Positions 38,145 through 47,820 of a stretch of DNA of 64,000 nt are shown here, one piece after another (position 1 is the first letter of the stretch; each line of letters starts with the position of its first letter). A model generated the notes under the pieces. The model did not search any database, was not told the DNA's origin, and saw only the letters and a list, made by a program, of their open reading frames with translations. Source of the DNA: Promethearchaeia archaeon (GTDB lineage Archaea; Asgardarchaeota; Lokiarchaeia; Sigyniarchaeales; SOKP01). Location of the stretch: positions 1-64,000 of the forward strand of contig JAHQWL010000103.1 in assembly GCA_029856155.1 (NCBI GenBank), read 5' to 3'. A program made the translations under genes and the position numbers.

Positions 38145-38990
38145 CTATAATAAAAGAAAAGTTCCTAACAGATATGTATCTAAATTTAAATCTTTTAAGA
38201 GTTTCATATTGTTATAAAGATAAGTATAAATGTTTTCCTCGCTAAAATATTTAAAACACGAATTGTTCCCTTTTACTTCCCTTAAGATATTTACAATTTT
38301 AGTAAGTATCTTTTTTAGATTTTTAATAACCAAATCAGTATCACTTTTAATTAAATTAATGTCTCTAATATTAAACCATGATTCTTTGCTAAAAGAAATA
38401 TTCTTTAACTCAGGTTTATCCTGCATATCTTTGTGGTTTTTGAAATCAATACAAAAGTTTTCAATTTTCTCCAGAATCAAATTTTTTGATTTGGTATACA
38501 TTTTGTTTTCTACAACATTTCTTAGCATTATTAAAATTTTTTGGAAAATGCCTAAAATATCAAAAAAGTCAGCTACTTTTCCTAAATTTTCCACTTCTCC
38601 CCATTGGTCATAGTAATCTTCAATCTCATTAAGAAATGGCAGAAAAATATTGATATTTCCATCCCAATTATGTCCTTTTTTCTCCCAAACAGGATCAAAC
38701 TGTTTTACAAATGCGTTTCTAATAACATTTAATCTACCTAACAAGAGTTCAGTTTTTATGTGTTTTGTGTCTGCTGCAACGAAAAGCAACTTATACTTCT
38801 CTTCTAATATATAAACCCATCTTAACCCACCCATTTCTATAGAATCTAAGGATTCTTTAAATTCAACCATTGAGAAGTGGTGGAATGCTGTTAAAAAACC
38901 AGAAACTATATCTTCGTCGGCATCTGTTTTTAAAAAGGACTTATATAATAATTTAACTCCTGATTCAGCATCCATTATCCATATAATCAT
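38145..38990 (-). CDS. Longin-like domain protein with helical C-terminus
   Basis: A frame of 281 codons from ATG 38990. Residues 1-110 follow the Asgard longin/roadblock-like pattern (IWIMDAESGVKLLYKSF, DIVSGFLTAFHHFSMVEF, MGGLRWVYILEEKYKLLFV, NAFVKQFDPVW), the third such protein in the window. The remaining 170 residues are helical, with no motif. The frame is open for 53 codons further upstream. That extension is mostly a translated copy of ldh (38991-39077) and is rejected as native coding sequence. The ATG lies directly against the end of the duplicate. Confidence 0.65.
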   Translation of the reverse strand: MIIWIMDAESGVKLLYKSFLKTDADEDIVSGFLTAFHHFSMVEFKESLDSIEMGGLRWVYILEEKYKLLFVAADTKHIKTELLLGRLNVIRNAFVKQFDPVWEKKGHNWDGNINIFLPFLNEIEDYYDQWGEVENLGKVADFFDILGIFQKILIMLRNVVENKMYTKSKNLILEKIENFCIDFKNHKDMQDKPELKNISFSKESWFNIRDINLIKSDTDLVIKNLKKILTKIVNILREVKGNNSCFKYFSEENIYTYLYNNMKLLKDLNLDTYLLGTFLLL

Positions 38991-39077
38991 TGGAATACCC
39001 GTCTTTCTTCTTTCTAATTCAGAATAGCATTCTTTTTCTCCTGCTGTGTAGATTTTTTCTTTCCCAGGTGCTTTTTT
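38991..39077. repeat. Duplicated 87-bp segment of ldh
   Basis: It matches 32738-32824 at 83 of 87 bases in the same orientation and keeps the same reading frame as ldh. It ends at the base before the start codon of the longin-like gene, so it now forms that gene's 5' leader. Confidence 0.88.
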
Positions 39078-39295
39078 AAAAATATAGGCTACTCTATATG
39101 AGGAGATAAATATGTTAATCTTATAAATTATTTTAAACTTGAGAATCAATATTAGATAGAGGAGGAAACTTTTAAACTTTGAATTTCTCCAATCTAATCT
39201 TTTTATAACAAAGTTTTTTAAATAGAAAATTTTACAGCACTGTCACTATTTTTATATACATGGTATTTTTATAATTATTTTCAAATTTGATATTC

Positions 39296-39592: not shown

Positions 39593-41227
39593 TTACTTCT
39601 TTCCATTTTCCCGTATTATGAATTTTCCATTAACATATAAGCAGGTAAGACGATTTCTAAATATCCAATCACTACCAAATTCATCCCAATATTCCCTAAA
39701 TAGATCATTAGTAAGAAATTTAGACTTTTCTGCCTTTGCGACTTCTAAAACATATTCATCGGCTTTCGTGCCCGCGGGAGATTGTACTACAATTCCATCT
39801 TCAATTAGTCCTTCATAAAGACTTTTATCATCCATTTTATGTTTCGTAGAAGCATCTGCTATCATTGTGGGAGTATATCCCATTGAAAATACTGCTCTGT
39901 GGACTTTAATGATATTCTCAACCTTCAATTCCTGATTTTCATTCTTATCTTGGTACAAGATATTTGCTAAATCAACTATAATCATCTTATTGGGACTTTG
40001 AATAGATGTTTTTTCATCATGATTAAATTTTATGTCTACTACTTCTTTTTTATTAAGTAAATTGTCTAATTCTGAAATTTTTTCTAAGAAATAAGAGTAA
40101 TCTTCAGGAGATAAAGTGATTTTTGAAGTACTACATCGTTCTAAATCGTCTAAACAATTAAAAATCCATTGCTCAAATTTATTCCACTCAGTATTGAAGG
40201 ACGGTATTTCTTCTGATGCGATTTTCTTTGTAGTTTTCTTAATTTCAGATATATTGGGTTTTGATAATGATGGTTTCTGTTTTATATCTAACTTTTTTAA
40301 TATCATTTCAAAGTCTAGTTGGTCTGACTCAGTTAATTGATAATATGATATGTTCATTTGGTTCCATTCATTTATGAAATCCTCTGGAATACCATTTTGC
40401 CAATGATGATTTCGCAAATAGTTATAGAGTTTTTGAGGATTATATAACTCCTCTAATTCTAAATGGGCAGGATTCACTCTTTTGGAGCGAAAATTATGAA
40501 GAAGCTGGACAAACTCTTTTCCAATTTGTCTATTTGTAGTTATTATTATATCATATTCATCTGAAAAATCTTTTAATGCTTGTGGCGGTTTAAATTTTAT
40601 ATTTTTAATATCTGGAAGATTGATATCATAATAGCGACTTGTAAAATCCAAAATTGAATTCCAATATTTTTTATTATACTCACGTAATATATCAGGAAGG
40701 GTTTCCAAATTTCCACTTTGATTTAACTCCTTAAAAATTCTACTAGCAACAATTTTAATTTTCTGAATGTTTTCTTGTAAGAGAGTTTCATCTTGCGATG
40801 TTGAGATAAGATGATTTTCAAATTCTAAATCAGAATCATCAATATCATAATTTAGAAATTGATTATTTTTCTTATTAAAAAAAATAAATCTACTTCCGTT
40901 TGCTAAACTACTAATATTTTCATTTGAGTTAATAACACATCGAATCCCTTCTAAATTCATTAATTCCTTCACTTTATCTCGATCTACATTATATATAAAA
41001 TAGAGTGTGGGATTTTGAGAATAAGAATTGGTTGACTCAAACTCCAGTATTTCTTTAAGGTTATGTAGAGCTGTAGATTCAAGATCAACTATGTTATATC
41101 CTGCGGTAAAAATTTCAAGACCATGAAGATGCTTCATGTCAACATAGGGAAATATCACTAAATTTCTCTGTTGAAAAAAAAGGATATTTAAAAACTCTGG
41201 TCGAATGAAATCTGAGCTTGTATCCAT
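39593..41227 (-). CDS. Large protein with C-terminal Zc3h12a-like NYN (PIN-fold) RNase domain
   Basis: A 544-residue protein. The C-terminal domain (residues about 412-544) is a Zc3h12a/NYN-type nuclease. It has KMIIVDLANILY with the first acidic residue, GYTPTMIADASTKHK, the conserved GTKADEYVLEVA and KFLTNDLFREYWDEFG. Such domains cut RNA with Mg2+ through an acidic cluster, which looks intact. Residues 1-410 are unlike anything I know: an alpha/beta N-terminal part, helical segments and a possible regulatory region. It is the last gene of a three-gene operon with a MglA-like GTPase (22-nt gap) and a roadblock protein, so the GTPase may control the nuclease. Confidence 0.72.
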   Translation of the reverse strand: MDTSSDFIRPEFLNILFFQQRNLVIFPYVDMKHLHGLEIFTAGYNIVDLESTALHNLKEILEFESTNSYSQNPTLYFIYNVDRDKVKELMNLEGIRCVINSNENISSLANGSRFIFFNKKNNQFLNYDIDDSDLEFENHLISTSQDETLLQENIQKIKIVASRIFKELNQSGNLETLPDILREYNKKYWNSILDFTSRYYDINLPDIKNIKFKPPQALKDFSDEYDIIITTNRQIGKEFVQLLHNFRSKRVNPAHLELEELYNPQKLYNYLRNHHWQNGIPEDFINEWNQMNISYYQLTESDQLDFEMILKKLDIKQKPSLSKPNISEIKKTTKKIASEEIPSFNTEWNKFEQWIFNCLDDLERCSTSKITLSPEDYSYFLEKISELDNLLNKKEVVDIKFNHDEKTSIQSPNKMIIVDLANILYQDKNENQELKVENIIKVHRAVFSMGYTPTMIADASTKHKMDDKSLYEGLIEDGIVVQSPAGTKADEYVLEVAKAEKSKFLTNDLFREYWDEFGSDWIFRNRLTCLYVNGKFIIRENGKK

Positions 41228-41249
41228 TCCTTCACCATTAATCAGCTAA

Positions 41250-41912
41250 TTATTCTTTAAAATAGTTAAAAATAACTTGAAGTATTAAATCCTTAAAACA
41301 TTGTACAACATTTTTTCCTTGCAATGCCTCTGCGGGATAAACTATATATGATCCATCTGGATATCTCTCTTGAAGCGGAAGTCCTAAATGAAGTTTGAAA
41401 TCTTTCACTGTGATTGCATCTTTTAAGTCTCGTTTGTTTAACTGAATTAAGTATGGGATTTCTTTTGGTTTAGCAAAACTCACCAGCTCTCGAAAACTTC
41501 TTTTATTTTGTTCTATTTTTTCTGGATCTGAATCTCCAATAAACATAATCCCATCAGCCCCATCCAATACATACTCACGAGTCGAAAGGAATCGTTCTTG
41601 ACCAGTGCACGTGACTACATGGCATATTATATTAAATCTAACATCATGTAGACTGAATTTAAATAATAAATATAGAGAATCTTCCCATAGTGTTCTTCCT
41701 TCAGTAGTTTCAATAGAATACCCGCGAGTTAATTTGAGCAAATCGAACTTTTCACGTAATCGAAAAAAATTTGTTGTTTTTCCACTTTCTCCTGGACCCC
41801 AATATACTATCTTAAACTGAATCATATTCTCAGAATCGTTGAAGTCAAAATCTTCACTTACTTCAACTTTTATCTTATCAAACTTACCTGGATTTCTCTG
41901 TTCTAATTCCAT
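41250..41912 (-). CDS. Ras-like small GTPase, MglA-type
   Basis: A 220-residue GTPase. G1/Walker A is GPGESGKTT (residues 39-47), G3 is TGQERF (about 103-108, with Cys-Thr in place of the Asp-Pro/Ala of DxxGQ), and G4 is NKRD (159-162). The opening VYWGPGESGKTTN closely resembles bacterial MglA (YYGPGxxGKTTN). MglA-type switches work with roadblock proteins such as MglB as GAP/GEF. Here a roadblock gene lies 23 nt upstream. The Shine-Dalgarno CAGGTGATTAA is next to ATG 41912. The first 28 residues are an acidic extension. No prenylation signal is present. Confidence 0.85.
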   Translation of the reverse strand: MELEQRNPGKFDKIKVEVSEDFDFNDSENMIQFKIVYWGPGESGKTTNFFRLREKFDLLKLTRGYSIETTEGRTLWEDSLYLLFKFSLHDVRFNIICHVVTCTGQERFLSTREYVLDGADGIMFIGDSDPEKIEQNKRSFRELVSFAKPKEIPYLIQLNKRDLKDAITVKDFKLHLGLPLQERYPDGSYIVYPAEALQGKNVVQCFKDLILQVIFNYFKE

Positions 41913-41935
41913 TTAATCACCTGAGAGGAGGTAAT

Positions 41936-42484
41936 TTAAGAGATAGATCCAATTTTATCTGAGAATATTTGCTTTTTTAAATCTTTGATATGTTCTTTTA
42001 TTTCCTTCTCTGGCATTCTTAAGACATTCTTCATATGTTCATTTCTTTCAATTTCTTCTCTAATTTTCTGAGCGAATTTGCTCATTTGGAGGATCATCAC
42101 ACCTAAATTTACCTCGTTGTCCGTTAATAGAACAATTAGAATATCTCGTTTTCCCTTCTTTTGAAGTTCAATGTTTCCAATCGATTTTACAAACAATCGC
42201 ATATCGCTATAAATTATAGTCGCACGTTCTAAGGATTCTGTATCAAAAAAATCTTGACCCTGTCTTGCTACACCGTATAAGGCTGCCCCGATTGAACTTA
42301 AGTCCCAATAATTTAATTTTCGATCAAATCGAGAATCTATAGCAACAATTTTTGCATCTTGATCGATTGCAATTAGACCATAAATATATCCCTTCCTTGT
42401 TAGTTTTCCATACTGATATCTTATATCATCCAACACTTCAGTTATCTTGTTTTTATATAAAACTTTTGGTATATGAGTTATCAT
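41936..42484 (-). CDS. Roadblock/LC7-like protein, predicted partner of the MglA-like GTPase
   Basis: A 182-residue protein. Residues about 15-140 follow the roadblock/LC7 fold: YIYGLIAIDQDAKIVAID, SIGAALYGVARQGQDFF, ATIIYSDMRLFVKSIG, DILIVLLTDNEVNLGVMIL. The last 40 residues form a charged helix. Roadblock proteins dimerise and regulate Ras-like GTPases (MglB, Ragulator). It is the first gene of the operon with the GTPase and NYN-RNase genes. The promoter has T-rich sequence and CTTTATATA about 55 nt before the start. Confidence 0.78.
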   Translation of the reverse strand: MITHIPKVLYKNKITEVLDDIRYQYGKLTRKGYIYGLIAIDQDAKIVAIDSRFDRKLNYWDLSSIGAALYGVARQGQDFFDTESLERATIIYSDMRLFVKSIGNIELQKKGKRDILIVLLTDNEVNLGVMILQMSKFAQKIREEIERNEHMKNVLRMPEKEIKEHIKDLKKQIFSDKIGSIS

Positions 42485-42535
42485 CTTAGTTTTCCTATAT
42501 AATATATTTTTATTGTAATGATATATCGTGAGGAA

Positions 42536-42550
42536 TATATAAAGAAAAAA
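42536..42550 (-). promoter_or_regulatory. Promoter of the roadblock/GTPase/NYN operon
   Basis: On the minus strand TTTTTTCTTTATATATT reads towards the roadblock gene, about 52-60 nt before its ATG. It is one of a set of near-identical promoters in the 42-57 kb segment. Confidence 0.5.
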
Positions 42551-42773: not shown

Positions 42774-43709
42774 TTAATAATTATACAACTCAGTTGACAA
42801 GTATCTTTCCCCAGTATCACATATAATAAATACAATGTTCTGTCCGGCTTCAAATTGTTTTGATACTAAATTTATTGCCGCCCAAGCTATTGCACCCGAG
42901 CTAATTCCTGAAAAAATTCCTTCTAATCTAGCTAAATCTCTTGCTGTTTTAATAGCATCTTCATATTCTACTTGAATAACTTGATCATAAATCTTTGTAT
43001 TAAGAACATCTGGTACAAAACCGGCACCGATTCCTTGAATTTTGTGTGATCCGGGATTTCCCCCTGATAAAACAGGAGAGTCTTTTGGTTCTATAGCGTA
43101 CACCTTCAATTTAGCACCAATTTTTTTTTTTAAAACTTCTCCAACTCCGGTAATAGTTCCTCCTGTACCGACCCCCGCGACAAAAGCATCTACATTCCCA
43201 TCTAGATCATTAATTATCTCAATCGCTGTTGTTTTGCGATGAATTTCTGGATTTGCTAAATTTTTAAACTGTTGGGGAATATATACTTTCCCTTTTTCTT
43301 TGGCGATGTCTTCAGCCTTGACTATTGCACCTTTCATTCCTTCTTCTTTTGGAGTTAAAATTATATCTGCTCCATAAGCTTTTAAAATTTTAACTCGTTC
43401 AATTGATACGCTCTCAGGCATGACAAGAATTAATTTATATCCTTTTGCAGCACAAACTAAAGCCAATCCAATACCAGTATTACCAGAGGTTGGTTCCACA
43501 ATAATTGTTTCGTTATTTATTATCCCCTTTTCCTCTGCTGCTTGAATCATAGCAATTCCAATCCTATCCTTTATACTTCCTCCGGGATTAAAATATTCTA
43601 ATTTAGCATAAAGGTTCGGTTTTGGATTTATATTCTCTACAATTCTATTCAACCTAACTAGAGGCGTTTTACCTATTGTCTCAAGTATGCTGTTATATAT
43701 ATTTGTCAT
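42774..43709 (-). CDS. cysK: Cysteine synthase (O-acetylserine sulfhydrylase)
   Basis: A 311-residue PLP enzyme making cysteine from O-acetylserine and sulfide. NPGGSIKDRIG holds the PLP lysine (Lys47). EPTSGNTGIGLA binds the substrate carboxylate. GVGTGGTITGVGEVLK binds the PLP phosphate. ATG 43709 is chosen over ATG 43727 because GGAGGGATTTAAA, a strong Shine-Dalgarno, precedes it; this start lies one base after the cysE stop. The pair cysE-cysK is a complete two-step pathway from serine to cysteine. Confidence 0.93.
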   Translation of the reverse strand: MTNIYNSILETIGKTPLVRLNRIVENINPKPNLYAKLEYFNPGGSIKDRIGIAMIQAAEEKGIINNETIIVEPTSGNTGIGLALVCAAKGYKLILVMPESVSIERVKILKAYGADIILTPKEEGMKGAIVKAEDIAKEKGKVYIPQQFKNLANPEIHRKTTAIEIINDLDGNVDAFVAGVGTGGTITGVGEVLKKKIGAKLKVYAIEPKDSPVLSGGNPGSHKIQGIGAGFVPDVLNTKIYDQVIQVEYEDAIKTARDLARLEGIFSGISSGAIAWAAINLVSKQFEAGQNIVFIICDTGERYLSTELYNY

Positions 43710-43710
43710 T

Positions 43711-44556
43711 TTAAATCCCTCCCCCATGTTTTCCGTAATAAATTTGTATTTCCTCTTGTTTTTTCTTAGTTTTATCTAAGACTCTCACTTCTAATTCTTT
43801 TATTCTTTTATCTAGACTAGAAACTGCAATTGCAATTGGATCTGGTAGATCTCCGTGTCTTAAGTCAATTTTTTCGATTTCTTCTCCTTTTTTAGAAATA
43901 ATTTTACCGGGTACTCCAACCACTACACAATGTGGGGGAACATCTTCTACAATAACTGAATTAGCTCCAACTCTAACATTATCTCCGATTTTGATAGGTC
44001 CTAAGATCTTTGCTCCCGCCCCTATTACCACATTATTACCAATAGTTGGATGTCTTTTCACTTTTTCTAAACTGGTTCCACCCAGCACTACTCCTGAATA
44101 TAAGGTGACATTATTACCGATTTCTGTTGTTTCGCCAATTACAACACCTGATCCATGATCGATAAAAAATTCTGCTCCAATATCAGCACCAGGATGTATT
44201 TCAATTGCAGTTAAATCTCTTGCTATATCCGAAATATATCTAGGGATAAAAGGCATCTTTAATTTCCAAAAGAAATGAGCTATTCTATATAAAAGGACTG
44301 CTTTTACTCCGGGATAACCAGCTAATACTTCAATTAAAGTATTTGCTGCGGGATCTTTATTGAAAGCAGCATTGACATCTGATATAAAAAAATCTAAAAT
44401 TTTTTGTAAATTTCGATCAATTTCTCTATTATCTAAATCTTCAGTCTTAAAATTCAAATTTAATAGACATTCAGTACATTGAGTTTGAATATGTTTAGAT
44501 TTAGGACCTAAGGTTTTACCACAGTTTAAACAACGAATAAATTCATCCATTTCCAT
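43711..44556 (-). CDS. cysE: Serine O-acetyltransferase with N-terminal zinc ribbon
   Basis: A 281-residue enzyme acetylating serine with acetyl-CoA. Its left-handed beta-helix carries the CysE motifs [37 protein letters not shown] and GVVLGGTS, then [18 protein letters not shown]. Residues about 8-32 form a four-cysteine zinc ribbon (CLNCG, then CTECLLNL), which standard CysE/EpsC proteins lack. The C-terminal 35 residues form a charged coil. It is co-transcribed with cysK directly downstream. The zinc ribbon may mediate protein contact or metal-dependent control. Confidence 0.92.
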
Positions 44557-44739: not shown

Positions 44740-45663
44740 TTAGATAACTTCTAATATTGTTCTTTTCGTAGAACTAAGCTCTTTTTCATTAGAATAAGTA
44801 AATTCTTTTATAATTACATTGGATAATTTGATACTATTACCATCTTCAATCTTTTTAACGCATTCCACAGCTTGCAACCCCCAAATATTAACTCTAATTG
44901 AGCTTGTATCATCACTTAAAATGAGCTTCAATAGAAAAGATTTCTCACCATTCTTTAATGTTAATTCTTTAAATTCTTGAACTTGAACAATACCCTTGAC
45001 AAAACGTATAAAGCCTTCCTTACTATATAATTCCTCTATTGTGAATTTAGAGGGGACTGGTTTAGAAACCCTTTTCTCAATAGACTTGGAGTGATCCACA
45101 TTCTTAACTTCGGGTAAAATTATTCCCTTTGGAGCCAATATTAGCTTTCCTTGCCTACTTAAATGCACTTCTAAATTATCCTTAATTCCTTTTTTAGAAT
45201 AAGCTCCAACAACTTGGATAATCTCTCCTGTCTGAAAAAATTGATTAGAAATAATCTCTGTTTGGTCATTCCACAACACAACCTTAACACAATCAGATTG
45301 ATCACAAATTTGAAATGAGCCAACTGTTCCTGGAGTCCCATCTTTCCTTAAAAATTCTTTTTTCCCCTGAATTTCAGTTATCCTTCCTGCTATGACAATA
45401 TTTCTCATATTTTCAGTAATATTAGAGATAGGTATTGCGAAGTCATTATAATCTATAATATCTTCTGTTATGCGATCTAAAATCTCATTATTTTCTGAAG
45501 AATCAACTTTGACTCCATTCTCTTTTGCGATTAAATATAAGATTGCTTGTTTGTTCATGAAACCTTGGAATTCAGTTTCTTTTTCCTTAACTTGTGCCGT
45601 AAGATCATCCTCACTCATTCCTGCATCCAACAACGCCTGGTAAATTTCTTCAGCTCGTTCCAC
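44740..45663 (-). CDS. RPA-like single-stranded DNA-binding protein with two OB folds
   Basis: A 307-residue protein. Residues about 75-170 form an OB fold of archaeal RPA type (MRNIVIAGRITEIQGKKEF, GSFQICDQSDCVKVVLWND, GEIIQVVGAYSK). A second OB fold spans about 205-300 (FIRFVKGIVQVQEFKEL, LILSDDTSSIRVNIWG). The first 50 residues are helical, probably for oligomer contacts. It should coat single-stranded DNA in replication or repair. The start is GTG 45663 with AAAGGTGTGA upstream and a TATA box about 35 nt before it. No zinc finger is visible. Confidence 0.82.
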   Translation of the reverse strand: MERAEEIYQALLDAGMSEDDLTAQVKEKETEFQGFMNKQAILYLIAKENGVKVDSSENNEILDRITEDIIDYNDFAIPISNITENMRNIVIAGRITEIQGKKEFLRKDGTPGTVGSFQICDQSDCVKVVLWNDQTEIISNQFFQTGEIIQVVGAYSKKGIKDNLEVHLSRQGKLILAPKGIILPEVKNVDHSKSIEKRVSKPVPSKFTIEELYSKEGFIRFVKGIVQVQEFKELTLKNGEKSFLLKLILSDDTSSIRVNIWGLQAVECVKKIEDGNSIKLSNVIIKEFTYSNEKELSSTKRTILEVI

Positions 45664-45687
45664 TGTATTATTTCACACCTTTCTATT

Positions 45688-45921
45688 TTATTCATATATA
45701 AAAGGAAAATTGCTTTGTCTATCATTCATATTAAATTTTGAAAGATTAACTTGTTCTGGAGTATTTAGAGGATATATTTCAGGATTTATGTTACAATTCC
45801 ATGAATACACGTGTCTATCATTATTAAATACTACACCAAACTCATTAGAGTGATGAATACAAACGGAAAATTTCCTTCTTCCATATGAATTTATACTTCT
45901 AAATTCATGTTCTAATGACAT
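45688..45921 (-). CDS. Small protein of unknown function
   Basis: A 77-residue protein. GTGATG lies 4-10 nt before ATG 45921, and a CTTTATATA promoter lies about 57 nt upstream. These two signals support a real gene. The sequence is rich in Asn, His and aromatic residues, with two cysteines and no recognisable domain. Its 3' end overlaps the promoter region of the RPA-like gene. Confidence 0.5.
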   Translation of the reverse strand: MSLEHEFRSINSYGRRKFSVCIHHSNEFGVVFNNDRHVYSWNCNINPEIYPLNTPEQVNLSKFNMNDRQSNFPFIYE

Positions 45922-45977
45922 TTTACATCACTTTCTTTTAATTTTAGAATTATTCTGGAAGAATATTACAAGGAGTC

Positions 45978-45993
45978 TATATAAAGAAAAAAT
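45978..45993 (-). promoter_or_regulatory. Promoter of the 77-residue gene
   Basis: On the minus strand ATTTTTTCTTTATATAG is almost the same as the promoter at 42536 and lies 57 nt before ATG 45921. Confidence 0.45.
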
Positions 45994-46010
45994 GCAAAGC
46001 CAAAAATCAA

Positions 46011-46619
46011 TTACTCTGATAAACTTTTGATAAATTTAGAAGTCAAACCAATTTTGTTACGAGTTCTGTGAAATGCATAAGCAGAGCAACTACATAATGC
46101 TCTTAAATTTGACTGAATTATTTTTTGAGGTTCACTTTTAGCAATCAAATCAGTTATAAATATAACAATTGTTAATTGAGTCATTAATTGCGGCCAAAAA
46201 AATAAGGTATCTAACTTGTCTTTTAATCTTCGAGCATTTTCTTTTGCTCGTTTGTAATCGAACACTGGAGCTAGCCGGTAAAATCTATGTAAAATAATGT
46301 TAATAATTTGGTTTTGGTCTCTAGCATGGAGCACCTTTGGATTGTTATTGATAAATTTTCTGAAATTTAGCAAACCAATTAAAAATTCACTGATAAACTT
46401 ATGAACAAGTTTAACTGGAATGTTTAAGGCTTCACTTATGCGCTTATTTTCGGAAGTTGTTATGACTCTTACCTTTTCTCTAATTGTTAAAAAAGAAATA
46501 TTTCGAAACAAGTAATTTAATATAATTGGTTTTAATTTATTCTGAGACTTATAAAAGTTATTATAATAATCATTTATACTGTCTAATTCGAAGCTTTCCT
46601 TTTTTAATGTCTGAGTCAT
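46011..46619 (-). CDS. Possible TFB-related protein lacking the zinc ribbon
   Basis: A 202-residue basic helical protein. The last 60 residues (TQLTIVIFITDLIAKSEPQK, then SAYAFHRTRNKIGL) have the rhythm of a TFIIB cyclin repeat ending in its HTH. The 57658 TFB has a comparable stretch (LISSISVLCSCKDKVSISS, then NRLGIRMSTIQSQVKKR). Residues 60-100 may be a weaker first repeat. It has no zinc ribbon or B-reader, so if it is a TFB relative it cannot recruit polymerase alone. Promoter GTTTAAATA lies 52 nt upstream. The assignment is tentative. Confidence 0.5.
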   Translation of the reverse strand: MTQTLKKESFELDSINDYYNNFYKSQNKLKPIILNYLFRNISFLTIREKVRVITTSENKRISEALNIPVKLVHKFISEFLIGLLNFRKFINNNPKVLHARDQNQIINIILHRFYRLAPVFDYKRAKENARRLKDKLDTLFFWPQLMTQLTIVIFITDLIAKSEPQKIIQSNLRALCSCSAYAFHRTRNKIGLTSKFIKSLSE

Positions 46620-46670
46620 GATTTCCTCAATGTTTCAATTAAATCTTAATAAATGTTTATAACAAGTGTA

Positions 46671-46685
46671 TTTAAACAAAAAATA
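46671..46685 (-). promoter_or_regulatory. Promoter of the TFB-related gene
   Basis: On the minus strand TTATTTTTTGTTTAAATACA is found 52 nt before ATG 46619, matching the local promoter pattern. Confidence 0.45.
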
Positions 46686-46725
46686 AGTAAAAGTGCTAAA
46701 GGTGTTTCATATTAAAAGAAAAAAT

Positions 46726-47820
46726 TTAGAGAAGATTATCTAATGTAATTTGGAATTTTCGCGGTTTTTGTCTCTGATGAATAAAAAATTCTCTAGAAGC
46801 AGTATAATTTTTTTCAAAGATATCCAGGTTTTTCTCAACACGTTCTTTATTGAGATAATGTTCTTCACATAATAAAGATAATACTCTTGTTTTATTTGCT
46901 GGATTCCAAAATATATTGTCAATTTGTTCATTTATATGAGGAAACAAAAATATTTTTCTCACTTTTTTTATTATATCAGGATTTAACTCACCAAAATCGT
47001 AATTATTATATTCTTTTAGAATAAGGGTCTCAATGGATTTGTATTTTCGAATAAGTTGTAATGCTTTTTTTGATCCAATACCATCAATCCCTGGAAAATA
47101 ATCTATACCAACTAATATCCCAATATCAATGAGTTGAAAAATTGAAATCCCTAAATTCTTTAAATTCTTCTGTAAATCAATTGAGACTGGTTGTATCTTT
47201 TTGTATCTCCATTTTCCCTGAATTTTCCTCTTTAACGATTTCGAGAGATTTTGAATAACATAAGGGCATCCAAATAAGAGTGAATCGAAATCTTGGGAAT
47301 TTGAGAAATTTGCGATTTTTTGTTTTACTAAGAATGCACATTGAGATTCTGCTGAAGCGGGAGAATCTATAAAAGGAATACCCAAAGCTCCCAGAAGTTG
47401 TTTTGATTCTTCTATTATATTCTGCCACATATATTCTTTACTTAAGGCAATTTTTCTTGCTAAATCTCTGTTGTGCTGACTTATAGCTTCCTTATACCAT
47501 TTTCGAATAAAAATGAAATCTTTTAACTGATCTTTTGTTATCACTTTTTTCAGTTCAGAAACTTTTCCATCAAAACAAAAAATAGGAAATATTCTCTTAC
47601 TATAATAAAAATTCACTCGATACAATAAACCATATAAGTGTGATATTGGTCTCTGCGTTCTGTCTAAAATCAATCCCGCGTCAGTTCCATCTGAGTCTTT
47701 GCGAGCAAAGGTGAATAGCCCCATTATAATATTCGGAGCATCAATCGCTATAATTTTACCCTTTAAGTCTTGATATTCAAGTTGCTTTCGAACTATAATG
47801 TTTTGAAGTTTAACTCCCAT
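46726..47820 (-). CDS. fen: Flap endonuclease FEN-1 (XPG family), with one altered active-site position
   Basis: A 364-residue structure-specific nuclease removing 5' flaps in replication and repair. It has the N-terminal MGVKL and IIAIDAPN (Asp27), CFDGK (Asp84), NSQDFDSLLFG (Asp177, Asp179) and the helix-hairpin-helix GIDYFPGIDGIGSKKALQLI. The C-terminal QITLDNLL resembles a weak PCNA-binding box. In canonical enzymes the internal motif is EGEAQ, with two metal-binding glutamates; here it is SAESQ (156-160), so the first glutamate is a serine. Activity may be reduced or shifted. The promoter is 26 nt upstream, so the leader is almost absent. Confidence 0.85.
   Translation of the reverse strand: MGVKLQNIIVRKQLEYQDLKGKIIAIDAPNIIMGLFTFARKDSDGTDAGLILDRTQRPISHLYGLLYRVNFYYSKRIFPIFCFDGKVSELKKVITKDQLKDFIFIRKWYKEAISQHNRDLARKIALSKEYMWQNIIEESKQLLGALGIPFIDSPASAESQCAFLVKQKIANFSNSQDFDSLLFGCPYVIQNLSKSLKRKIQGKWRYKKIQPVSIDLQKNLKNLGISIFQLIDIGILVGIDYFPGIDGIGSKKALQLIRKYKSIETLILKEYNNYDFGELNPDIIKKVRKIFLFPHINEQIDNIFWNPANKTRVLSLLCEEHYLNKERVEKNLDIFEKNYTASREFFIHQRQKPRKFQITLDNLL

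Follow-up and report, generated by a model that had tools for sequence, protein, structure and literature searches.

MglA and MglB, a small GTPase and its roadblock partner, form the polarity switch of Myxococcus and Thermus. The hallmark of the MglA family is replacement of the conserved Asp in the G3 motif by Thr (PMC3000849), and coupling of MglA to roadblock proteins is common in prokaryotes (404 of 488 MglA members; PMC4316618). Asgard genomes encode many small GTPases and roadblock proteins (PMC10933270). In MK-D1, small GTPase genes generally do not share an operon with a roadblock gene (Tran et al. 2024, PMC10933270), so the partners of Asgard GTPases are hard to match and a unit in which the two are consistently paired is useful. 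Bacterial conflict systems combine inactive STAND modules with variable effectors, HEPN domains included (PMC8195603, building on Kaur et al. 2020), and offer the closest analogy to the unit described here.

The locus lies in a 64,000-nt stretch of lokiarchaeal DNA (the window; positions 1 to 64,000 of contig JAHQWL010000103.1, assembly GCA_029856155.1, 4.1 Mb). Lokiarchaea are close archaeal relatives of eukaryotes, and the unit suggests that they possess a switch that can be connected to different predicted nucleases. Three ORFs occupy positions 39593-42484 on the minus strand (Table 1), and the intergenic gaps of 23 and 22 nt confirm the spacing given in an initial annotation made from the sequence alone. 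From their conserved linkage and co-loss, the three genes were identified as what appears to be one signalling unit, consisting of a GTPase, its probable regulator, and a probable effector. One shared promoter for the trio is plausible; sigma-70 promoter scans are uninformative for archaea.

Table 1. Positions in the window of the three genes, the parts of the third protein, and candidate expression signals
Feature	Position	Strand	Details
Roadblock/LC7 protein, divergent	41936..42484	-	182 aa; helical C-terminal extension; first gene
MglA-type small GTPase	41250..41912	-	220 aa; phmmer to MglA structures, invariant columns in relatives
Third gene (core, linker, and NYN)	39593..41227	-	544 aa
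Core of third protein, residues 1-312	40292..41227	-	Conserved with the trio; AF2, Foldseek
Linker with C-terminal amphipathic helix, residues 313-409	40001..40291	-	dN/dS, pLDDT, tail boundaries
NYN (Zc3h12a-type) tail, residues 410-544	39593..40000	-	Pfam PF11977, Foldseek, profile search, alignment
TATA-like element (putative), 5' of roadblock gene	42534..42543	-	Read from sequence; AT-rich region
Shine-Dalgarno-like AGGTGAT, 5' of GTPase start	41916..41922	-	Read from sequence
Shine-Dalgarno-like GGTGA, 5' of third gene	41232..41236	-	Read from sequence

The genes around the trio were also inspected. A block comprising a second FEN1/XPG nuclease, a 202-aa unknown protein, and an OB-fold RPA-like protein (44740-47820) recurs upstream of the trio in relatives; a further FEN1/XPG nuclease is encoded on contig C1 of the same genome. 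Between the OB-fold gene and the trio are cysteine synthase-like and serine acetyltransferase-like genes (42774-44556), an arrangement shared with G015 and absent from the other neighborhoods examined. An uncharacterized protein with a marginal match to the FUZ/MON1 longin domain (E 0.013), strongly conserved among relatives, is encoded at 38145-39149. No known defense genes were recognized adjoining the window trio. A type II toxin-antitoxin interpretation was rejected, as the small antitoxin-like partner is absent.

Single-sequence searches with the first protein returned no significant match in Pfam or the PDB. It was assigned as a divergent roadblock protein from a profile-profile comparison with the roadblock proteins that Pfam recognizes in the same genome, for which hhalign gave 91.8% over 119 columns; control profiles gave 0.2%. 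The second protein matched MglA structures directly (phmmer, 3.9e-22). Its P-loop reads GPGESGKTT, its G3 motif is TCTGQ, with Thr for Asp, and an NKRD motif is present. In the alignment, the switch I sequence GRTLWxD falls opposite ERTLFFD of MglA and TCTGQ opposite TVPGQ, placing Arg73 and Gln105 at the positions of the MglA catalytic Arg and Gln; R73, the Arg finger, and T101, T103, G104, and Q105 are invariant in 23 relatives. Both identities proposed in the initial annotation, a roadblock protein and an MglA-like GTPase, were thus borne out, and a GTPase-roadblock pair of the MglA/MglB kind is supported by these alignments. The roadblock protein shows a mean column identity of 77% over 24 relatives, and dN/dS for the pair is about 0.05, indicating very slow evolution.

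Conservation of the neighborhood had been set beforehand as the test of the proposed operon, and the three genes are indeed neighbors in many related genomes, of which the named ones are Lokiarchaeota/Lokiarchaeia metagenome-assembled genomes. Within the GTDB family of the window, 47 distinct roadblock genes were compared. The GTPase gene follows 46 of them in the same orientation, and a contig end truncates the other locus; at 41 of the 47 loci the third gene is also present downstream. This contiguity persists while the flanking genes (the FEN1 paralog, the OB-fold protein, and others) vary. Among 37 family genomes sampled in both searches, 26 have the roadblock gene, and the core of the third protein is intact in 25 of these; of the 11 that lack a full roadblock gene, none has an intact core (one-sided Fisher test, ~1e-8, relatedness ignored). 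As judged from these genomes, the roadblock and third proteins are lost together. In a larger set of 65 genomes, the full core was present in 42, fragments or an NYN match alone in 7, and nothing in 16; duplicates are frequent. The core is confined to the window's family, and the roadblock-GTPase pair, coreless and tail-free, reaches other families of the order; no third gene was found adjoining the pair outside the family. In L169, a 719-aa neighbor considered as a third component was rejected since it has no core match; it looks, by eye, like an unrelated DUF4838-type glycoside hydrolase-like protein. One trio-bearing lokiarchaeal contig, L074 (JANBVM010000009.1), is filed under a Patescibacteria genome and is probably mis-binned.

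The initial annotation had suggested GTP-controlled RNA cleavage, and RNA cleavage was not sustained as the defining output of the unit. Residues 1-365 are the part of the third protein that is conserved, and in most relatives the core stands with no nuclease domain behind it; the NYN domain was therefore rejected as the defining third component. The N-terminal 410 residues, described at first as unknown, do lack a useful database match, but they contain the core of the system, with the NYN domain as a replaceable tail. Searches of the core against Pfam, NCBIfam, PADLOC, and the PDB gave no match of value, and its alignments contain neither a Walker A (GxxxxGK[ST]) nor a Walker B motif. Structure prediction had been suggested as a check on the N-terminal region. 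Two AlphaFold2 models (pLDDT 77 and 84, the latter for the core, with low values at 319-338) display an alpha/beta domain and, after it, two helical domains over residues 1-312, in an AAA+-like order of elements. AAA+ proteins lead the Foldseek matches; most of these are subunits of clamp loaders, and CED-4/APAF-1 is present as well. The E values are about 5e-4 and the probabilities 0.9-0.97, yet the TM scores are about 0.3 or lower and the rmsd values mostly 16-20 A. Given the low TM scores, the large rmsd, and the missing Walker motifs, the core is only tentatively called AAA+-like, with a weak resemblance to inactive AAA+ proteins in the models. The linker that follows is fast-evolving and includes the C-terminal amphipathic helix, which in relatives reads IPSxxxFxxFKxWxLxxLxxIE. 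Comparison of the window with G015 gave dN/dS values of 0.15 in the core, 0.46 in linker residues 331-409, and 0.155 in the NYN domain. The linker, residues 313-409, appears from the tail boundaries to be the site of tail exchange.

The assignment of the tail itself as a Zc3h12a-type NYN domain held up, with a score above the Pfam cut-off and a matching predicted fold. PF11977 was matched over residues 414-536 at 39.9 bits (cut-off, 23; E 4.7e-10). Foldseek retrieved MCPIP1, ZC3H12C, KHNYN, and PRORP2, with TM scores of 0.6-0.7 to MCPIP1/ZC3H12C, and a profile search retrieved PRORP2 (1.2e-7) and ZC3H12C (7e-7). The positions of D419, D490, D508, and E512 are acidic in all seven tails of the genus, and the dN/dS of 0.155 indicates that the domain is under purifying selection. 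NYN tails of this kind occur in seven genomes of the window's genus and, as a degenerate copy that has lost two of the four acidic positions, in G031 (L044), only. NYN domains also occur in other contexts. In another Asgard family, a conserved protein of ~580 aa (L181:3844-5595, L182:4600-6345) has an N-terminal region predicted to be secreted, a membrane segment, and NYN at its C-terminus, a layout that suggests membrane-linked RNA cleavage. In G005, a 1294-aa protein with no Pfam match (L059:2215-6099) is encoded by a gene ending one base before that of an NYN protein and is a possible partner.

Several other members of the genus carry different domains behind the core. The second copy in G002 and the protein of G003 have a helical tail with RNEITH (L033) or RNKLTH (L041); a zinc-ribbon protein that is widespread in the family has a related C-terminal part. 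This protein of about 290 aa (L191:1153-2025 and relatives), with an HEPN-like C-terminal part, is encoded in most family genomes. Rx4-6H is the motif of HEPN RNases (PMC3710099); Rx4H is mostly degenerate in the zinc-ribbon proteins and retained in the copies fused to the core. The tails of L055 and L074 belong to a different type, akin to the C-terminal domain of TPR proteins; relatives of this type keep RNSKSH or RNPSSH, L055 itself lacks the motif, and it matches the PADLOC TPR model at 1.8e-13. From the motif and the context, the replacement tails are predicted to be HEPN domains. This stays a prediction since no HEPN-like tail matched Pfam and the single HEPN match in PADLOC, to RTasHEPN, was weak (0.0068, in 2 of 14). 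The occurrence of HEPN-like domains at the position of the NYN tail nevertheless makes an RNase effector more credible than the NYN domain would alone.

Exchange of the tails can be followed within one genus, where the third protein ends in NYN in seven genomes, in a predicted HEPN domain in others, and in one genome in remnants of both. Mapped on the core tree, the distribution of NYN requires at least five changes on well-supported branches. Tails differ within the sister pairs G006/L074 and G008/G014 and between the paralogs G002a and G002b. The core of G014 is 93% identical to that of NYN-bearing G008, but its reading frame ends early. Downstream are a 26-residue relic resembling the G003 tail, not equaled in any of 2,000 shuffles, and a 38-nt remnant of the end of NYN, beyond which the sequence is again 93% identical to that of G008; to judge from the sequence, these relics are the scar of a replacement. 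In this genus the C-terminus of the scaffold is a hotspot of repeated domain gain, loss, and exchange, with the switch kept. The alternation extends beyond the core: another N-terminal module, which is not related to the core, carries NYN in L059/L244 and the L055-type HEPN-like domain in L211/L221 (1e-13 to 1e-4 by blastp; 96.7% by hhalign), and TPR proteins too bear either NYN or an HEPN-like domain. In these archaea, NYN and HEPN-like domains therefore act like modules that can replace one another. Such behavior is the pattern expected of effectors and provides the strongest support for the RNase reading.

The unit, its co-loss, the exchange of tails, and the retention of NYN residues under purifying selection are evident from comparison among relatives. 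The explanation that we judge best, and to which we give about an even chance, is that the GTPase controls a scaffold whose RNase effector is optional and interchangeable, with a possible role in defense. The roadblock protein, by analogy with MglB probably a dimer, would set the nucleotide state of the GTPase; the GTP-bound GTPase would bind the core, a catalytically inactive scaffold, and alter its assembly or placement. The tail, where present, would be an endoribonuclease (NYN here, HEPN in relatives) activated or positioned by this change. Loss and exchange of tails with retention of the switch would fit a conflict or stress response, for example, RNA-targeting antiviral dormancy. What we infer in this scheme is that the GTPase physically binds the core, that GTP governs the nuclease, and that RNA is its substrate, together with the biological trigger. 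Most family members are tail-less, which implies an ancestral output other than RNA cleavage. A bolder version holds that the genes form a new archaeal immunity system, in which an MglA/roadblock switch is combined with an inactive AAA+/STAND-like scaffold and polymorphic NYN/HEPN RNases, so that the GTP state would license destruction of RNA upon infection; we consider this doubtful.

A housekeeping role was weighed against the RNase scaffold. The unit could be a switch for polarity or membrane placement, with the core as a structural adaptor and the tails as localized cargo, with no nucleotide-dependent activation, that could serve, for example, in mRNA turnover at one site. The polarity role of MglA/MglB (PMC2907295, PMC6876712), the prevalence of the core alone, the slow evolution of the switch proteins, and the existence, in other families of the order, of the pair without a tail all agree with this. 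However, about a third of the family genomes, nearly complete ones included, lack the unit or have it in decayed form, unlike what a housekeeping function would show, and repeated swaps among predicted RNases would be unusual for passive cargo; we regard the role as rather unlikely. The clamp loader matches raise the prospect of a DNA replication or repair unit, in which the core would be a degenerate AAA+ subunit resembling those of clamp loaders and the tails would work on nucleic acids at forks or flaps. The second FEN1/XPG nuclease and the OB-fold RPA-like protein are frequent neighbors, and in another family (L179) FEN1 likewise lies ahead of the roadblock-GTPase pair. The fold matches are weak by TM score and rmsd and come with no Walker motifs, the trio is intact away from FEN1/RPA in L033, L034, and L050, and HEPN domains are RNases and not DNases, which leaves this proposal distinctly improbable. 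Finally, the rank of PRORP2 as the top Foldseek and profile match would suit an RNA-processing enzyme (PRORP- or HARP-like) sharing an operon with the GTPase switch by chance. An essential tRNA-processing enzyme would not tolerate the absence of NYN from most relatives and its replacement by unrelated domains, and PPR repeats were not recognized in the core; such an enzyme is very improbable.

No description of the unit was found in the open-license literature searched. Its linkage and co-loss yield a testable three-protein Asgard system, and exchange of NYN and HEPN on one scaffold would indicate an Asgard GTPase switch acting on RNA or in defense and not in trafficking. With the MglA/MglB switch it shares a G3-Thr GTPase, the catalytic Arg and Gln, and an adjoining roadblock gene; it differs in being Asgard, in the C-terminal extension of the roadblock protein, and in having a third conserved core protein and nuclease tails. 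The protein classes are those described for Asgard GTPases and roadblock proteins (PMC10933270), here consistently paired. The NYN fold and acidic residues are those of Zc3h12a/Regnase-type RNases, but the domain is fused to a scaffold, lies in a GTPase operon, and has no CCCH finger. No vWA, MoxR, or EAD components were seen among the neighbors of the trio in the window, the region scanned for them. The conflict systems with NTPase switches (PMC8195603) share with the unit a nucleotide switch, an apparently inactive NTPase-like module, and a variable C-terminal effector, whereas here the system is archaeal, the switch is of the MglA/roadblock type, and the relationship of the core to AAA+/STAND proteins is tentative.
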